This document shows positions 28,085 to 35,861 of a stretch of DNA of 49,508 nt, piece after piece (position 1 is the first letter of the stretch; every line of letters starts with the position of its first letter). The position numbers and the translations under genes were made by a program. The stretch is from contig JAQUFE010000015.1 in the NCBI GenBank assembly GCA_028684815.1, forward strand, positions 1 through 49,508. Direction: 5' to 3'. The DNA comes from Sulfurimonas sp. (GTDB taxonomy: Bacteria > Campylobacterota > Campylobacteria > Campylobacterales > Sulfurimonadaceae). Under the pieces are notes generated by a model. The model was not told the DNA's origin and did not search any database. It saw only the letters and a program-made list of their open reading frames with translations.

Positions 28085-29011
28085 ATGAAGATAGTTATCT
28101 TAGATGCACTAACTTTTGGTGATGCTAATTTGAGTGTTTTTAAAAGCTTGGGCGAAGTTGAAGTTTATGAATCAACAAGCCCTGAACAAACTCTCTTGCG
28201 CATAACAAACGCTACAGTTATAGTTACTAACAAAGTTGTTATAGATGCTGAACTTATGAGTGCAGCAACAAATTTAAAACTTATCTGCATAGCAGCTACT
28301 GGGACTAACAACATAGACCTTGAGGCTGCTGCTTCAAGAGGCATCGAGGTTAAAAATGTAGCTGGATACTCAACTAACTCAGTGGTACAGCACACTTTTT
28401 CTATGCTTTTTTATCTTCTAGGACACTCTAGATATTATGATGAGTATGTAAAAGATGGCTCATACACAAAGTCTCCTATCTTTACGCATCTACCAAAACC
28501 ATTTTTTGAGTTAAAGGGTAAAAAGTGGGGAATTATAGGGCTTGGAACTATTGGTCGAGGAGTTGCAAGCGTTGCATCTGCTTTTGGTGCAAAAGTTTGC
28601 TATCACTCAACAAGTGGGAAAAACCTTACAAGAGACTATCTACATGTAGATTTGCAAACACTCCTTGAGACTTGTGATGTTATCTCTATCCATGCGCCGC
28701 TCAATGAGCAGACTAAAAATCTACTCTCATATAAAGAGCTTAGTTTATGTAAAGATGGCTCAGTTATAGTAAATGTTGGCAGAGGCGGTATTATAGATGA
28801 AGATGCTGTGGCTAAGATAGTTGATGAGAGAGAGCTATACTTTGGGCTTGATGTACTAGAGAGAGAGCCGATGAGAGAGAATCATCCACTCTTAAGTGTG
28901 AAAAATGGAGAAAGACTCTTCATTACGCCACATATCGCTTGGGCATCTAACGAAGCTAGAGAGAAGCTTATAGAGTTAGTGGCTCAAAATATAAGAGACT
29001 CAGCTCTTTAA
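28085..29011 (+). CDS. D-2-hydroxyacid dehydrogenase (glycerate/hydroxypyruvate type)
   Basis: An NAD(P)-dependent oxidoreductase of the D-isomer-specific 2-hydroxyacid family. The 308-residue length is normal. The Rossmann motif GLGTIGRGVA is clear, and the catalytic set is present: Arg in VNVGRGGIIDE, Glu in VLEREPMRENHPL and His in FITPHIAWAS. An N-terminal catalytic-domain motif CIAATGTNNID matches the glycerate dehydrogenase subgroup, but the true substrate cannot be read from sequence. The ATG follows the purT stop directly, and a YqaA-type membrane gene follows 26 bases later. Confidence 0.9.
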   Translation: MKIVILDALTFGDANLSVFKSLGEVEVYESTSPEQTLLRITNATVIVTNKVVIDAELMSAATNLKLICIAATGTNNIDLEAAASRGIEVKNVAGYSTNSVVQHTFSMLFYLLGHSRYYDEYVKDGSYTKSPIFTHLPKPFFELKGKKWGIIGLGTIGRGVASVASAFGAKVCYHSTSGKNLTRDYLHVDLQTLLETCDVISIHAPLNEQTKNLLSYKELSLCKDGSVIVNVGRGGIIDEDAVAKIVDERELYFGLDVLEREPMRENHPLLSVKNGERLFITPHIAWASNEAREKLIELVAQNIRDSAL

Positions 29012-29037: not shown

Positions 29038-29442
29038 ATGAGTGAGTTAGCACTCTTTTTATCTGCATTCCTTGGGGCTACACTGCTTCCCTTGTCATCT
29101 GAGGTCGCATTTGTTGCGGCTCTTGCATCTGGTATGAATCCACTTAGTGCAATCTTCTTTGCATCTTGTGGAAATCTCTTAGCCATCATTCTAAACTACT
29201 GGTTTGGCTACTGGCTCTATGATAAAACAAAAACAAAGTTAAACTCTTCAAAAACAGGAACTAAAAGTTTAGAGTATGGACACAAATATGGCTACTTTAT
29301 ACTTCTGTTTTCATGGCTTCCTGTTATTGGCGATCCACTAACACTTGTAGCTGGTGTTTTAAGACTTAGGTTTGTTTGGTTTGTTATAGTCGCTGGAGGT
29401 TTAAGGGTTTTAAGATACTACCTTCTAACTCTTGTGGTATAA
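29038..29442 (+). CDS. YqaA/DedA-type membrane protein (VTT domain)
   Basis: A 134-residue inner-membrane protein of the SNARE-associated/VTT domain superfamily, close to YqaA. It has four or five predicted membrane segments and the family's central NYWFGYWL and LFSWLPVIGDPLTLVAGVL motifs. The latter includes the conserved Pro and Asp seen in lipid-scramblase-like DedA proteins. A transport or envelope-lipid role is inferred from the superfamily. GGAG seven bases upstream fixes the ATG. The stop codon overlaps a -10 box of the following kinase. Confidence 0.85.
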   Translation: MSELALFLSAFLGATLLPLSSEVAFVAALASGMNPLSAIFFASCGNLLAIILNYWFGYWLYDKTKTKLNSSKTGTKSLEYGHKYGYFILLFSWLPVIGDPLTLVAGVLRLRFVWFVIVAGGLRVLRYYLLTLVV

Positions 29443-29443
29443 T
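29438..29443 (+). promoter_or_regulatory. -10 box over the YqaA stop codon, for a leaderless kinase mRNA
   Basis: TGGTATAAT: the hexamer overlaps the stop codon of the upstream gene and ends seven bases before the kinase ATG. No ribosome binding site precedes this ATG, so the transcript may start at the start codon. Confidence 0.45.
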
Positions 29444-29450
29444 AAAAACT

Positions 29451-32045
29451 ATGAAAATCACACTTCTTATAGCTCTTCTTAGCACTCTTTTATTTGCCAC
29501 TACCAAACCGATGGATAAAGTATCACTTCAACTTATGTGGGTTGATCAGTTTCAGTTTGCAGGCTACTATATGGCAAAAGAGAAGGGCTTTTATAAAGAA
29601 GCAGGGCTTGATGTAGAGATAAAAAAATTTAGAAAAAAGATGAATACTGTAAATGAGGTTATGAGCTCTAGAGCTACTTATGGCATCGGACGCTCAAGCC
29701 TTATAAGATCTCGCTCTGATGGCGAAAAGGTAGTCTTACTCTTAGCAATATTTCAATCTTCCCCCTTTGCACTAATTGGCACTGATATAACAAATATCAA
29801 GAGTATAAAAGACTTTAAAGGCAAAAAAATCATGCTAACTAGGGATGCTTCTGATGCAGCTTCCATCCGTGCTATGATAATGTCAAGTGGGATTAAAGAG
29901 AAAGATATTGTGATACTAGAACATAGTTTTAACTTTAACGATCTTCTAGATGCTAAGGTTGACTTATATGCTGGATATACAACAAATGAGACATATAACT
30001 TACAAGAAAAAAACATCCCTTATAGAATTTTTTCCCCAAAAGATGAGGGTTTTGACTTCTATAGTGACATACTCTTTACATCCCAAAAAGAGCTAGATGA
30101 AAACCCTAAAAGATTAGAAAAATTTATAGATGCCTCACTTAAGGGTTGGAGATATGCCTTTGAAAATATAGAAGAGAGTATAAAGTTAGTGCATGAAAAG
30201 TACAACAGCTCAAACAAAAGTATAGAGGCACTAAGATATGAGGCAAATGAGCTAAGAAAACTAGCTTTCGTAGATGGTGTTAAATTTGGTGAGATAAGTG
30301 AGGAGAGAGTTACTCGGATATATGATATATATAAAATTCTTGGACTTGCTAAAGATAGGATAGATATGGATGAGTTTATCTTTAACAAAAACTCAAATAC
30401 CTTAAGTGCGAGTGAATATGCCTATCTAAGAGATAAAAAAGAAATAACTCTCTGCACGATACCTTCATTTTTGCCATATAGTGCTATTAAAGATGGTGAA
30501 GTAGAGGGTATTGGTTCTGGCGTTTTAGACATCATATCAGAGAGTGTTCCGATAAACTTTAAGCTTATGAAAACTAAATCATGGCAAGAGACACTCTCTT
30601 TAGCTAAAGAGGGCAAATGTGATTTTTTACCAATAGTAGAAAACACAGAGTCAAGGAGAGAGTATTTAGATTTTACGACTCCTTATTTTATGGACTCGAT
30701 GGTCATCATAACTGATGATAGGAAAAATTATATCTTAGATATCCATAGCGTCTTTGATAAAGAGTTTAGTGTAGCAGAGGGTTACTCCTTTATAGAGAGC
30801 ATAAGAAAAAAATATCCAGAGTTAAAACTTCATATAGTACCTACAAGAAAAGAGGGTTTTATGGGTGTGCAAAGTGGCAAATATTATGGTCATATAGATG
30901 CCATGATGGCAGCAGCTTACTACATGCAAAACAACTCAAAGTCAAATCTTAAAATATCTGGGCAGTTTGAAGAGGAAATTAAGATTAGTTTTGGAGTTAA
31001 AAAAGGTGATGAAGTACTCCTTAGTATATTTCAAAAGATTGCAAATGAGTTAAAGCTAAAAGATATACAGAGGGTTTTAAATGACTGGGTATCTATAAAC
31101 TACACAACAACACCAGACCACTCTTATCTCAAAAATATCTTGCTAATTACTTTTGCCATAGCCTTGATATTTGCATATAGACACCATCTGCTTAAGAGAA
31201 AAAACAAGGAACTCCACACACTCCAAAGTCAACTTGTAAGACTAAATAAATCATTAGAGACAAAGGTGGCTGACGCAGTTAATGATGTTTTGAAAAAAGA
31301 TGCCTATCTGCTGCATCAATCTCGTTTGGCTCAAATGGGAGAGATGCTAAGTATGATAGCACATCAGTGGAAGCAACCACTTAGTTCTATATCTTCGATG
31401 CAAATTGCGATTAGGATGGCGATAGAGCTTGAGAGATTTGACCTTAGCGATAAGCAACAAAGAGAGGAGTTTATAGAGTTTGTTCACCAAAAGCTAGATA
31501 AAATAGCGGCAAATACTCAAAATCTAAGTCAAACTATCTCAAATTTTAGTGACTTTTATAAGCCAAACAAAAGAGCAGAGATACGAAAGCTTGATGAAGT
31601 TGTTATGAAAGCTTGTAGCCTTGTAGAAGACAATATGGATGCAAACAACATAAGCATAAGTATGAGCTTACACTCAGATGCAACAGTAAGGCTTCATGAA
31701 AATGAGTTTATGCAAGTTATACTAAATCTTTTAAATAACGCAAAAGACCAGTTGATAGAAAAGCGTATCAAAGATGCTCAGATTAAGCTAAAGAGTTATG
31801 ATGAAAATGGAGTTGTAGTTTTAGAGATTAGTGATAATGCTTTGGGGATTGATGAGACTATTATTGAGAGTATTTTTGATCCATACTTCTCTACGAAATT
31901 AGAGAAAAACGGTACAGGTTTGGGGCTCTATATGTCAAAGCAGATCATAGAAGAGTATCATGATGGAATTATTAGCGTAAAAAATGTAAGAGGTGGTGCT
32001 CTCTTTACAATAAAGCTAGAAGTAGAGGATAACTATGCGAAGTGA
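29451..32045 (+). CDS. Sensor histidine kinase with tandem solute-binding-type domains (NMT1 and SBP3-like)
   Basis: An 864-residue transmembrane sensor kinase. A signal peptide (MKITLLIALLSTLLFATT) leads to an NMT1/THI5-like periplasmic domain (LMWVDQFQFAGYYMAKEKGFYKEAGLDVEI, about 24-290). A second SBP_bac_3-like domain follows (TLCTIPSFLPYSAIKDGEVEGIGSG, about 330-560). One membrane helix near residue 565 precedes a coiled segment. The HisKA domain has a phospho-accepting His in SMIAHQWKQPLSSI, and HATPase shows the N box NLLNNAKDQL, an altered G1 box DNALGI and GTGLGLYM. It probably senses a small solute. No response regulator lies next to it. Its 3' end overlaps sdhA by 11 bases. Confidence 0.9.
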   Translation: MKITLLIALLSTLLFATTKPMDKVSLQLMWVDQFQFAGYYMAKEKGFYKEAGLDVEIKKFRKKMNTVNEVMSSRATYGIGRSSLIRSRSDGEKVVLLLAIFQSSPFALIGTDITNIKSIKDFKGKKIMLTRDASDAASIRAMIMSSGIKEKDIVILEHSFNFNDLLDAKVDLYAGYTTNETYNLQEKNIPYRIFSPKDEGFDFYSDILFTSQKELDENPKRLEKFIDASLKGWRYAFENIEESIKLVHEKYNSSNKSIEALRYEANELRKLAFVDGVKFGEISEERVTRIYDIYKILGLAKDRIDMDEFIFNKNSNTLSASEYAYLRDKKEITLCTIPSFLPYSAIKDGEVEGIGSGVLDIISESVPINFKLMKTKSWQETLSLAKEGKCDFLPIVENTESRREYLDFTTPYFMDSMVIITDDRKNYILDIHSVFDKEFSVAEGYSFIESIRKKYPELKLHIVPTRKEGFMGVQSGKYYGHIDAMMAAAYYMQNNSKSNLKISGQFEEEIKISFGVKKGDEVLLSIFQKIANELKLKDIQRVLNDWVSINYTTTPDHSYLKNILLITFAIALIFAYRHHLLKRKNKELHTLQSQLVRLNKSLETKVADAVNDVLKKDAYLLHQSRLAQMGEMLSMIAHQWKQPLSSISSMQIAIRMAIELERFDLSDKQQREEFIEFVHQKLDKIAANTQNLSQTISNFSDFYKPNKRAEIRKLDEVVMKACSLVEDNMDANNISISMSLHSDATVRLHENEFMQVILNLLNNAKDQLIEKRIKDAQIKLKSYDENGVVVLEISDNALGIDETIIESIFDPYFSTKLEKNGTGLGLYMSKQIIEEYHDGIISVKNVRGGALFTIKLEVEDNYAK

Positions 32046-33654
32046 TGTTTTAATAATAGGAGCAGGTGGGGCAGGTTTAGTAGCTGCAATAAACGCTCAC
32101 GAGAGTGGTGCTAAGGTTAGAGTTATAACAAAAGAGTATCCAACAAGAAGCCAGACCTGTATGGCTCAAGGCGGTATAAATGCAGCTTTGGGAAATGCAA
32201 GCGATGATAGTGTAGAAGCGCATGTACAAAACACTCTAAAGTCAGCTCACGGCATTGCAAATGAAGATGCGGTTAGGCATCTATGTGAGAGCGCGCCAGA
32301 TGCAGTTGAGTGGCTTGATAGCATCGGAGTATGTTTCTCAAGGACAAAAGATGCAAAGATAGCTCAAAGAACTCTAGGAGGCGCTTCAGCTCCAAGAGCT
32401 TGCTATGCTAAGGACTATACAGGACTCAAAATCTTGCACACTCTTTATGATAGATGCAACGCTCTTGGCATCGAGATGCTAAGTGAGAGATATCTTCTAA
32501 ATCTTGTAACGCATAAACCGACAAGCTCAGATGCATATATAGGTGGTGCTACTTTTTTAAATATAAGAAGTGGAGAAGTTGAGAGTTACGAAGCCGCAGC
32601 TGTAATAGTAGCAACTGGTGGCTACTCTCGCATCTATGACAAACACTCCACAAACTCAACAAGTTCAACTGGAGATGGCCAAGCCGCGTGCCTTAGAGCT
32701 GGAGCGAGACTTAGTGATATGGAGTTTGTTCAGTTTCATCCAACTGCTCTAAAAGGCTCATCCATCCTAATCTCAGAGAGTGCAAGGGGAGCTGGGGGCT
32801 ATCTTTTAAACTCAAAAGGCGAGAGATTTACCAATGAGTTGGCACCTCGTGATGAGGTGGCTCGTGCCATAAACGAGGAGATTCAAAAGGGCGAGGGTGT
32901 CTTTTTAGACATTCGTCACTTAGGTGAAGAGTTTATAGATAGAGAGCTTCCACAAGAGAGAAAGCTTGCAAAACTCTATGAAAATATAGACCCAGTTTAT
33001 GAGATTATTCCTATAAAATCAGTTGCACACTACACTATGGGTGGCATAGAAGTAGATAAAAATTCACAAACAAACATAGAAGGACTTTTTGCTGTTGGAG
33101 AGTGCGCAAACCACAGAGTTCACGGTGCAAACAGACTAGGTGGAAACTCTCTTTTAGAGCTTGTTGTGTTTGGAAAGCAGGCTGGAGTAAATGCCGCAAA
33201 GTATGCAAAAATATTTGATAAAACCATAGAAACAAAAGAGCAAGTAAAGAGAGATGAAGAGTTTTTAAAGAGAGTAAAAGAGTTTTCAAATGAGATAGGT
33301 TTTTATGAAAAAAGAGAGTTTATTGGAGATGTTTTTTATAATAATGTTGGCATCTCAAGAGATGCTAAGGGTTTAAAAGAGGCTCTAGATGCAGTTTATA
33401 AAATCCAAAAAGAGATGCCAATGATGGGTCCAAAAGATAGATCTAAAATCTATAACACTAACTTAGTGGAGTTTTTAGAGTTTGTAAATATGATCGAACT
33501 TTGTGAGAGTGTTTTAGTGTGTGCAATTGAGAGAAAAGAGAGTAGAGGTGCGCACTATAGAAGTGATATGCTAGAACAAAATGATGAAAAGTACAAAGCT
33601 CACACCATTGCATACGAAGAAAATGGTACGCTTTTTACAGACTTTGCGGAGTAA
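32035..33654 (+). CDS. sdhA: Succinate dehydrogenase/fumarate reductase flavoprotein subunit
   Basis: A 539-residue FAD-linked subunit. The N-terminal dinucleotide motif VLIIGAGGAGLVAAI is followed by TRSQTCMAQGGINAALGN, the catalytic FHPT and RGAGGYLLN segments, HYTMGGIEVD and the HGANRLGGNSLLE motif. The residue that covalently binds FAD in SdhA/FrdA (His in RSHT) is Gln40 here (RSQT), so FAD is probably non-covalent. There is no Tat or other signal peptide, so the subunit is cytoplasmic. L-aspartate oxidase belongs to the same superfamily, but the tight pairing with an FeS subunit three bases downstream argues for Sdh/Frd. Its start overlaps the kinase gene. Confidence 0.88.
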   Translation: MRSDVLIIGAGGAGLVAAINAHESGAKVRVITKEYPTRSQTCMAQGGINAALGNASDDSVEAHVQNTLKSAHGIANEDAVRHLCESAPDAVEWLDSIGVCFSRTKDAKIAQRTLGGASAPRACYAKDYTGLKILHTLYDRCNALGIEMLSERYLLNLVTHKPTSSDAYIGGATFLNIRSGEVESYEAAAVIVATGGYSRIYDKHSTNSTSSTGDGQAACLRAGARLSDMEFVQFHPTALKGSSILISESARGAGGYLLNSKGERFTNELAPRDEVARAINEEIQKGEGVFLDIRHLGEEFIDRELPQERKLAKLYENIDPVYEIIPIKSVAHYTMGGIEVDKNSQTNIEGLFAVGECANHRVHGANRLGGNSLLELVVFGKQAGVNAAKYAKIFDKTIETKEQVKRDEEFLKRVKEFSNEIGFYEKREFIGDVFYNNVGISRDAKGLKEALDAVYKIQKEMPMMGPKDRSKIYNTNLVEFLEFVNMIELCESVLVCAIERKESRGAHYRSDMLEQNDEKYKAHTIAYEENGTLFTDFAE

Positions 33655-33657
33655 GAG

Positions 33658-34392
33658 ATGAAGATTAAAATAGCCAGATATATGGGCAAAGAAGTAACTC
33701 AAAAGGAAGATATCGAGTATGAAGTAAGCCTTAGTGATGCTACGCTCTTAGAGGTTTTAAATGAGATAAAGACAAAGCAAGATGCAACGCTTTCATACTC
33801 AAGTGGCTGTAGAAGCAGCATCTGTGGTAGTTGTTCTATGAGAGTAAATGGCAGAGAGGTTTTAGCCTGTGCTTATAAAGTAAAAGATGGCGACTTTGTA
33901 GAGCCTATGAAAAACTCACCTCTTATTCGTGACTTGGTTGTAGATATGGACAGAGCTTATGAGTTTAATGCAAAAGCAAAAGCGTGGCAAAGCTCTATAA
34001 AAAAAGGTGTAAGACTAAGCCAAGAAAATCAGATGCTAAATGAACTTCAAAGCGACTGCATCTTGTGTGGTTCTTGCTATAGTGTTTGCCCAGTTTATGC
34101 GGTAAATGATGAATTTTTAGGACCCTTTGCACTAACTCGCGTTTGGAAATATATTAGTGATAAAAGAGAGAGTGAGCCACAAAGTAAGATAGACGCTATC
34201 CAAACTAACGGTGTTTGGGATTGTACTCTTTGTAATGAGTGCACACTTGTTTGTCCGCAAGGAATATCTAGTAAAACAGATATAGAAAAACTCCGCATAA
34301 GAAGTGTTGCATCAGGATATAGTGATCCTAGTTTTGCAACTTCATTTGGTTCATTTGGAGGAGCTTCGTTTGATGGAAGTCCTAGTTTTTAA
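33658..34392 (+). CDS. sdhB: Succinate dehydrogenase/fumarate reductase iron-sulfur subunit
   Basis: A 244-residue electron-transfer subunit. Cys51, Cys56, Cys59 and Cys71 bind the [2Fe-2S] cluster. The C-terminal half has two full CxxCxxCxxxCP motifs, Cys134/137/140/144 and Cys189/192/195/199. Cys192 replaces the Val of the E. coli FrdB [3Fe-4S] site, so a [4Fe-4S] cluster is expected instead, as in the archaeal/Campylobacter-type enzymes. The last 20 residues are an odd Ser/Gly/Phe-rich tail. The membrane partner (SdhC/D or CCG-domain SdhE/MfrE) is missing: a minus-strand gene ends inside the last four bases. The quinone-reactive partner must be encoded elsewhere. Confidence 0.93.
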   Translation: MKIKIARYMGKEVTQKEDIEYEVSLSDATLLEVLNEIKTKQDATLSYSSGCRSSICGSCSMRVNGREVLACAYKVKDGDFVEPMKNSPLIRDLVVDMDRAYEFNAKAKAWQSSIKKGVRLSQENQMLNELQSDCILCGSCYSVCPVYAVNDEFLGPFALTRVWKYISDKRESEPQSKIDAIQTNGVWDCTLCNECTLVCPQGISSKTDIEKLRIRSVASGYSDPSFATSFGSFGGASFDGSPSF

Positions 34393-35861
34393 GCGTATCT
34401 GATGCAGTCTCTTCCTGCATCTTTTGCCTCATAGAGAAGCTCATCTGCTCGTTTAAAGACTTCATCCATCTTGTGGGGTTCATCTATCATGGTTACGCCA
34501 AAGCTACAAGTTAATTTTATGTTTTTACAAAAAAGGTTAGAGCAGGTCTTCTCTTTTATTTTTTGTGTTATTTTGACTGCATTTTCAAGGTTTCGCGTTC
34601 TTAAAACTATAGCAAACTCTTCACCACCCCATCTAGCAAAAAGGTCATCAGCTCTCAAATCTTTTTTTATAATGCTTGTTAGCTCTTTTAGTATTGCATC
34701 TCCGGTATCGTGACCATAAGTGTCATTTATCTTTTTAAAGTGACCTATATCAAAAAAGATGAGAGCGTATTCATTTGGGATAGTTACTCTTTTTTGTAAG
34801 AAATTATTTAACGAAGCTCTGTTATTTATGCCTGTTAGTGTATCTGTCTCAACTTCTACTTCTAGTTTACTAATGTTACTGTGATCTTTTTTGAGACTGT
34901 TTGAGTATTTTGTAAAGATGATATATATCAGGATGAAACATACTAAAAGTATAAGAAAGTTTAAGATATTTACTAAGATGATAGAGTCTCTGTTTTCTAT
35001 AACCTTTTGCGTAATGTCTTTTGCAATTAATATTTTGGCTAACATCTCGCCTTTGTAATCATCAAGACATAAGTCATTAAAGAGAATATAAGTCCTATCT
35101 TCAATCTCTACTATCTGCGACTGTTTATCAAGGTCAACACTCTCTTTTAGCTTGTTAAAAAAATAGTTTTTAGAAATAATAGAAAATTCTCCTAACTCCT
35201 CATAATCTGTTTGAGTTTGAAGATGCTCTAAACTAGAAGTTTTCACTAAAACCTGCGCCTCGGCACCGAGTAATGAACTCATACAAGATGCAAAGTATAG
35301 AGGCCTTATACCAAACTCTATAACGCCTAAATGTTCATCATCTCTAGTTATAAAGGGAAGAGAGATGCGATAGTTTATACCATTTTTACCAGTTTCAAAC
35401 CCAAAATGAACTTTTTTATCTATGTTTGTTTGCTTAATTATGGGACGAATATCTGTTAAATCATCATCATAACTCGCAGGTTTATGCATCCTAAGTATAG
35501 ATATATTTAGCGTGTCATGTAGATGCATAATATGAAGATTTGAGTTAAACTCTTGCAATTTTAAGTAGTTTTTTTCAAGTTTGTTATATAGCAGTTTCCT
35601 ATCTCTGTGCTTTATGGGCTCATAAATATCTTGCATATTTGTAAATGCAAACCCCACAGAGGTATATTTCTCTTCTAGGTTTGAGATAAGGTTTTTGTAC
35701 TGCAAGAGAGTATTTTTATGAAGTTCTTGCATCTGTACATCAATCATCGAGCGATGGTGTTTCACATCATAGTAACCCCTAGAGATGAGTGCTAAAAAAA
35801 AGATAAACCCAATTAGCAATAGATATCTATTTTTTAACTTATTTGAGTAATTTGAATACAT
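34389..35861 (-). CDS. dCache_3-type diguanylate cyclase
   Basis: A 490-residue membrane-bound cyclase. A helix at about 12-29 and a second at about 297-317 bracket a periplasmic double-Cache domain. The NLHIMHLHDTLNISILRMHKP segment is typical of the dCache_3 type that detects small ligands. The GGDEF domain has DTLTGINNRASL, FFDIGHFKKINDTYGHDTGD and the intact GGEEF signature (RWGGEEFAIVL), so cyclic di-GMP synthesis is likely. No ribosome binding site is obvious before the ATG. It converges on sdhB with a four-base overlap and is divergent from yajQ, a cyclic-di-GMP-binding family gene. Confidence 0.9.
   Translation of the reverse strand: MYSNYSNKLKNRYLLLIGFIFFLALISRGYYDVKHHRSMIDVQMQELHKNTLLQYKNLISNLEEKYTSVGFAFTNMQDIYEPIKHRDRKLLYNKLEKNYLKLQEFNSNLHIMHLHDTLNISILRMHKPASYDDDLTDIRPIIKQTNIDKKVHFGFETGKNGINYRISLPFITRDDEHLGVIEFGIRPLYFASCMSSLLGAEAQVLVKTSSLEHLQTQTDYEELGEFSIISKNYFFNKLKESVDLDKQSQIVEIEDRTYILFNDLCLDDYKGEMLAKILIAKDITQKVIENRDSIILVNILNFLILLVCFILIYIIFTKYSNSLKKDHSNISKLEVEVETDTLTGINNRASLNNFLQKRVTIPNEYALIFFDIGHFKKINDTYGHDTGDAILKELTSIIKKDLRADDLFARWGGEEFAIVLRTRNLENAVKITQKIKEKTCSNLFCKNIKLTCSFGVTMIDEPHKMDEVFKRADELLYEAKDAGRDCIRYA

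Follow-up and report, generated by a model that had tools for sequence, protein, structure and literature searches.

A candidate anchorless two-subunit fumarate reductase without the covalent-FAD histidine in Campylobacterota

Introduction

The window analysed here, the whole stretch of 49,508 nucleotides from a Sulfurimonas sp. assembly, carries two adjacent genes that resemble the catalytic subunits of succinate dehydrogenases and fumarate reductases. No gene for a membrane-anchoring third subunit accompanies them. The locus raises the question in which direction such a pair would work, where its electrons would come from and what it does in the cell. As far as a limited search of the literature goes, fumarate reduction in the reductive TCA (rTCA) cycle of Campylobacterota from vents and sulfidic waters, and the donor that drives it, appear to be biochemically unsettled.

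Results

A complex II-type pair with no anchor gene beside it

The two genes lie on the forward strand:

32035..33654, + strand: sdhA/frdA-like flavoprotein subunit, 539 aa (TIGR01812, 581 bits, curated cut-off 567.3)
33658..34392, + strand: sdhB/frdB-like iron-sulfur subunit, 244 aa (TIGR00384, 184 bits, cut-off 88)

Their products belong to the complex II superfamily. SdhA has the flavoprotein fold (mean pLDDT of the AlphaFold2 model, 89.8) and keeps the dicarboxylate-site residues H235, T237, E248, R272, H332 and R367, six catalytic residues that are invariant in the 56 readable SdhA proteins of the pair. SdhB is of the three-cluster type, and its nearest solved relative, by alignment as well as by Foldseek with the SdhB model, is E. 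coli FrdB. No signal or twin-arginine sequence is visible at the N-terminus of SdhA.

The first-pass annotation had noted that the third subunit is missing from the locus, and our survey bears this out. The gene 3' of sdhB encodes a diguanylate cyclase on the opposite strand (34389-35861, - strand), and no third subunit adjoins the pair in the window, in 30 loci of nearer relatives or in 19 distant loci, a few of them cut by contig ends and one (L155) with sdhA and sdhB lying apart. The conserved neighbours of the pair are purT, a D-2-hydroxyacid dehydrogenase, a VTT membrane protein, a sensor kinase, yajQ and a coiled-coil gene. The VTT protein was considered as an anchor and rejected, as its domain belongs to a known, unrelated family and it is not found beside the pair in other families. 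Several families keep the dehydrogenase-like gene (28085-29011 here) upstream of the pair, and it is the most lasting neighbour beyond the genus. The sensor-kinase gene (29376-32045) encodes NMT1/THI5-like and family 3 solute-binding domains and shares 11 bases with the start of sdhA; in 10 of 30 loci a relative of it precedes the pair. Both observations hint that the kinase and the pair are co-transcribed.

Loss of the FAD histidine

One position of SdhA stands out:

32152..32154, + strand: codon of Gln40, at the covalent-FAD histidine site (Gln in 52, His in 0 of 56 SdhA proteins of the pair)

The site reads YPTRSQTCMAQGG, and Gln40 aligns to the histidine of E. coli FrdA (YPMRSHT) and of M. 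smegmatis SdhA (YPTRSHT), a residue that is usual, though not universal, in complex II. The four SdhA proteins of the pair that do not have Gln carry Asn (2), Gly (1) or Ala (1). The substitution proposed in the first-pass annotation is therefore real. Its further proposal, that FAD is bound non-covalently and the enzyme biased towards fumarate reduction, is well supported as a prediction by this fixed loss taken together with published work. Fumarate reduction without succinate oxidation is seen in relatives whose FAD is non-covalent, and the covalent bond raises the potential of FAD (PMC9557727; PMC2680327). Loss of the histidine is already known from MFR, whose A86H variant acquired covalent FAD (PMC2680327). 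Outside the clade of the pair, an SdhA from Peregrinibacteria (L094:5983-7674) likewise has RSQTCMAQGG, perhaps an independent loss.

The iron-sulfur subunit and its tail

Two features of SdhB were followed:

34231..34233, + strand: codon of Cys192, fourth cysteine of the third cluster, at the position of FrdB Val207 (invariant in 25 orthologues; FrdB alignment)
34339..34389, + strand: Gly/Phe/Ser-rich disordered tail, codons 228-244, ending FDGSPSF (pLDDT below 50; Phe-terminated in 25 of 25)

Alignment of SdhB GVWDCTLCNECTLVCP to E. coli FrdB GVWSCTFVGYCSEVCP places Cys192 at the Val207 position, as had been claimed, and none of the cysteines of SdhB, Cys192 among them, varies across the 25 sequences. 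From the cysteines we predict one [2Fe-2S] and two [4Fe-4S] clusters. The suggestion that the third site has become a [4Fe-4S] cluster appears likely to hold, but the feature is not unusual: the SdhB of an sdhABE operon in the same genome has the same extra cysteine (CVKCFEC), and we dropped it as a special feature of the pair. The pattern is characteristic of E-type enzymes (PMC2680327), and by its sequence the SdhB of the pair shares with SdhABE/MFR the extra cysteine for a second [4Fe-4S] cluster.

The C-terminal tail (residues 228-244) is modelled by AlphaFold2 as disordered, and yet its end is conserved, often as FDGSPSF or a near variant, while distant SdhB orthologues have endings of the F(D/N)PN type. 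Its composition is absent from the 56 listed non-pair SdhB entries, some of them duplicates. It should be noted, however, that nine of these 56 do end in Phe, so it is the Gly/Phe-rich make-up and not the terminal Phe alone that is distinctive. Such a conserved flexible tail may be a docking site for an electron donor. In a genome of family f5, an orphan SdhB-like protein (L148:7423-8154) has a Gly-rich, Phe-ended tail and no adjoining flavoprotein of its own; that genome also has a separate SdhA (RSHT)-SdhB-CCG operon.

Relative to the nearest orthologue, dN/dS is about 0.15 for SdhA and about 0.12 for SdhB. With these values, an FAD histidine in none of 56 proteins and four third-cluster cysteines that are invariant in 25, the features of the pair exceed what chance would give.

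Other SdhA-like genes and possible partners

The genome encodes three SdhA-like proteins: that of the pair, that of the sdhABE operon on contig C93 and one on C53 that resembles aspartate oxidase and that we take as L-aspartate oxidase from its distance and its FKCNS motif. The C93 operon is complete, with its own SdhA (RSHS, histidine kept), its own SdhB and an SdhE with two CCG domains. Its sdhA gene (L009:12614-14553) is broken by an assembly gap, seen as a run of N. The cell thus does have a third subunit, though one encoded in a different operon. Across the 71 genomes with the pair, SdhE is missing in nine, eight of them with FrdC, and FrdC itself is absent from 49; neither can therefore be an obligatory partner. 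One genome in 110 contigs (G103) has neither, for which its assembly may be the cause. A CCG iron-sulfur protein encoded on contig C49 was rejected as a specific partner: of the 298 genomes surveyed in the phylum, 258 have it, whether or not they carry the pair. Its relative in family f10 (e.g. G340:C1:448457-449728) is part of an open frame of ~880-890 aa, and the match contains one stop; a fusion or a frame boundary may explain this.

Distribution and link to ATP-citrate lyase

Orthologues of the pair are present in most genomes sampled from the genus and across Campylobacterota, and among the best 80 matches of a scan with one genome per species the members of the pair clade came from this phylum only. 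In a quick SdhA tree with some long branches, the SdhA proteins of the pair group into a single clade (SH-aLRT 98) that excludes both the SdhABE flavoproteins of Campylobacterota and those of other phyla. Genome G155 was dropped from the set of pair genomes because its matches are an orphan SdhB and an SdhA with RSHT, accompanied by an SdhB and a CCG gene of its own. Judged from these sequences, loss of the FAD histidine in an anchorless pair is a trait of the lineage. Most carbon-fixing relatives have the pair together with a separate membrane-type enzyme.

The pair tends to occur with ATP-citrate lyase. Among 298 genomes of the phylum, 61 have both, 10 only the pair, 14 only the lyase and 213 neither (Fisher p 6e-39, with genomes counted as independent of phylogeny). 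The exceptions are clustered: the pair is found without the lyase in seven genomes of family f7 (probably Arcobacteraceae), in G278 and G390 and in the genome studied here, and the lyase without the pair mainly in family f5 and part of f10. In families f1, f4, f8, f9, f11 and f13, 58 genomes have both, two (this one included) only the pair and one only the lyase. We did not find ATP-citrate lyase in this genome, a 101-contig assembly that is 96% complete, whereas both subunits are present in its nearest relative, G069. For these reasons a role in the rTCA cycle is likely in the family as a whole, but for this organism it is less certain.

Discussion

It appears that the pair is probably a cytoplasmic, anchorless two-subunit fumarate reductase, which would work mainly from fumarate to succinate with a low-potential soluble donor and would serve the rTCA cycle. 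FAD would be held non-covalently and its potential lowered. A lowered potential would suit a donor more reducing than menaquinol, which points to a soluble carrier such as ferredoxin, flavodoxin or some reductase. The carrier would dock near the last [4Fe-4S] cluster, perhaps on the Phe-terminated tail of SdhB. In the lineage as a whole the main role would be the fumarate to succinate step of the rTCA cycle, and quinone-linked chemistry would be left to a separate SdhABE or FrdABC complex. In our search for the donor we found no candidate; the C49 protein, which we checked, is not specific.

The first-pass annotation had left the choice between an unlinked or unusual quinone-reactive partner and a soluble acceptor. 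An unlinked SdhE does exist, on C93, and the pair could be an E-type (SdhABE/MFR-like) enzyme that borrows it and reacts with menaquinone. The presence of SdhE in 62 of the 71 pair genomes and the E-type cysteine pattern of the pair SdhB speak for such borrowing, which we nevertheless consider unlikely: in nine pair genomes SdhE has no match and in G278 a distant one only, SdhE belongs to an operon that supplies A and B subunits of its own, and the pair SdhB (244 aa) does not have the C-terminal extension of the sdhABE SdhB (326 aa). The nine genomes without SdhE make a soluble partner a better fit than a shared anchor. Another candidate is an unlinked partner of a new kind, either quinone-reactive or a membrane protein, which the SdhB tail might recruit. 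It would account for the conservation of that tail despite its disorder and for the fact that no known anchor is obligatory. We regard it as improbable, however, since no candidate was found (the C49 CCG protein is near-universal across the phylum, irrespective of the pair) and a lowered FAD potential would, judging from PMC9557727, suit a low-potential donor better than menaquinol.

There is also the possibility that the pair has another role, such as supplying succinate for biosynthesis or redox balance in a branched TCA cycle, with the link to the rTCA cycle due to shared ancestry. The absence of the lyase from this assembly agrees with it, as do nine further pair genomes without the lyase, seven of them in one family. 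Against it stands the near-complete co-occurrence in the six families named above (58 with both, two with the pair only, one with the lyase only), and we hold this role to be unlikely. The soluble, rTCA-linked fumarate reductase remains our preferred reading, and it can be taken one step further. Quite tentatively, and with more doubt than belief, we propose a quinone-independent class of fumarate reductases in autotrophic Campylobacterota, in which the disordered Phe-terminated SdhB tail would dock a specific soluble donor and the rTCA step would be driven one way without a membrane.

Neither the clade-wide loss of the FAD histidine in an anchorless enzyme nor the conserved SdhB tail was found in a limited search of the literature. 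A single residue and the presence of an anchor distinguish two enzymes of one cell, with a direction and a location predicted for each, and the conserved tail offers a handle for finding the donor.

Among known systems, E. coli quinol:fumarate reductase FrdAB has the same catalytic residues as the pair, but its FAD histidine in FrdA, Val207 in FrdB and FrdCD anchor have no counterpart here. The CoM/CoB thiol:fumarate reductase TfrAB is, like the pair, a two-gene enzyme of soluble type with related A and B subunits (NF004900 and NF004898 are matched). The TfrB model has 488 positions, however, and SdhB of the pair matches only its first part; the HdrB-like CCG part of TfrB is absent from this protein of 244 aa, which has no CCG domain. 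SdhABE/MFR of Wolinella and Campylobacter also lacks the FAD histidine (Ala86 in Wolinella) and has the pattern for a second [4Fe-4S] cluster (PMC2680327). Non-covalent FAD and fumarate reduction only, which are reported for MFR (PMC2680327), are predicted for the pair. Unlike the pair, MFR has SdhE, Tat export and a longer SdhB (PMC2680327), and linked SdhE with CCG domains was found neither in the window nor in the orthologous loci. The pair scores far below the cut-offs of the NCBIfam MFR equivalogs (A, 448.4 of 1100 bits; B, 151.4 of 600 bits) and forms a clade separate from the Campylobacterota SdhABE.

A close likeness is with a two-subunit anchorless enzyme of Sulfurimonas denitrificans, for which a cytoplasmic location and a role in the rTCA cycle were proposed (Sievert 2008, via PMC4674564); a similar two-subunit enzyme was reported for a related genome (PMC4674564). 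In the excerpt of PMC4674564 that concerns it, the S. denitrificans enzyme has two subunits, no anchor and the place of a second copy beside a three-subunit complex, as the pair does, and its FAD site, cysteine pattern and tail go unmentioned. Going by that excerpt, the S. denitrificans enzyme and the pair probably belong to the same enzyme family.
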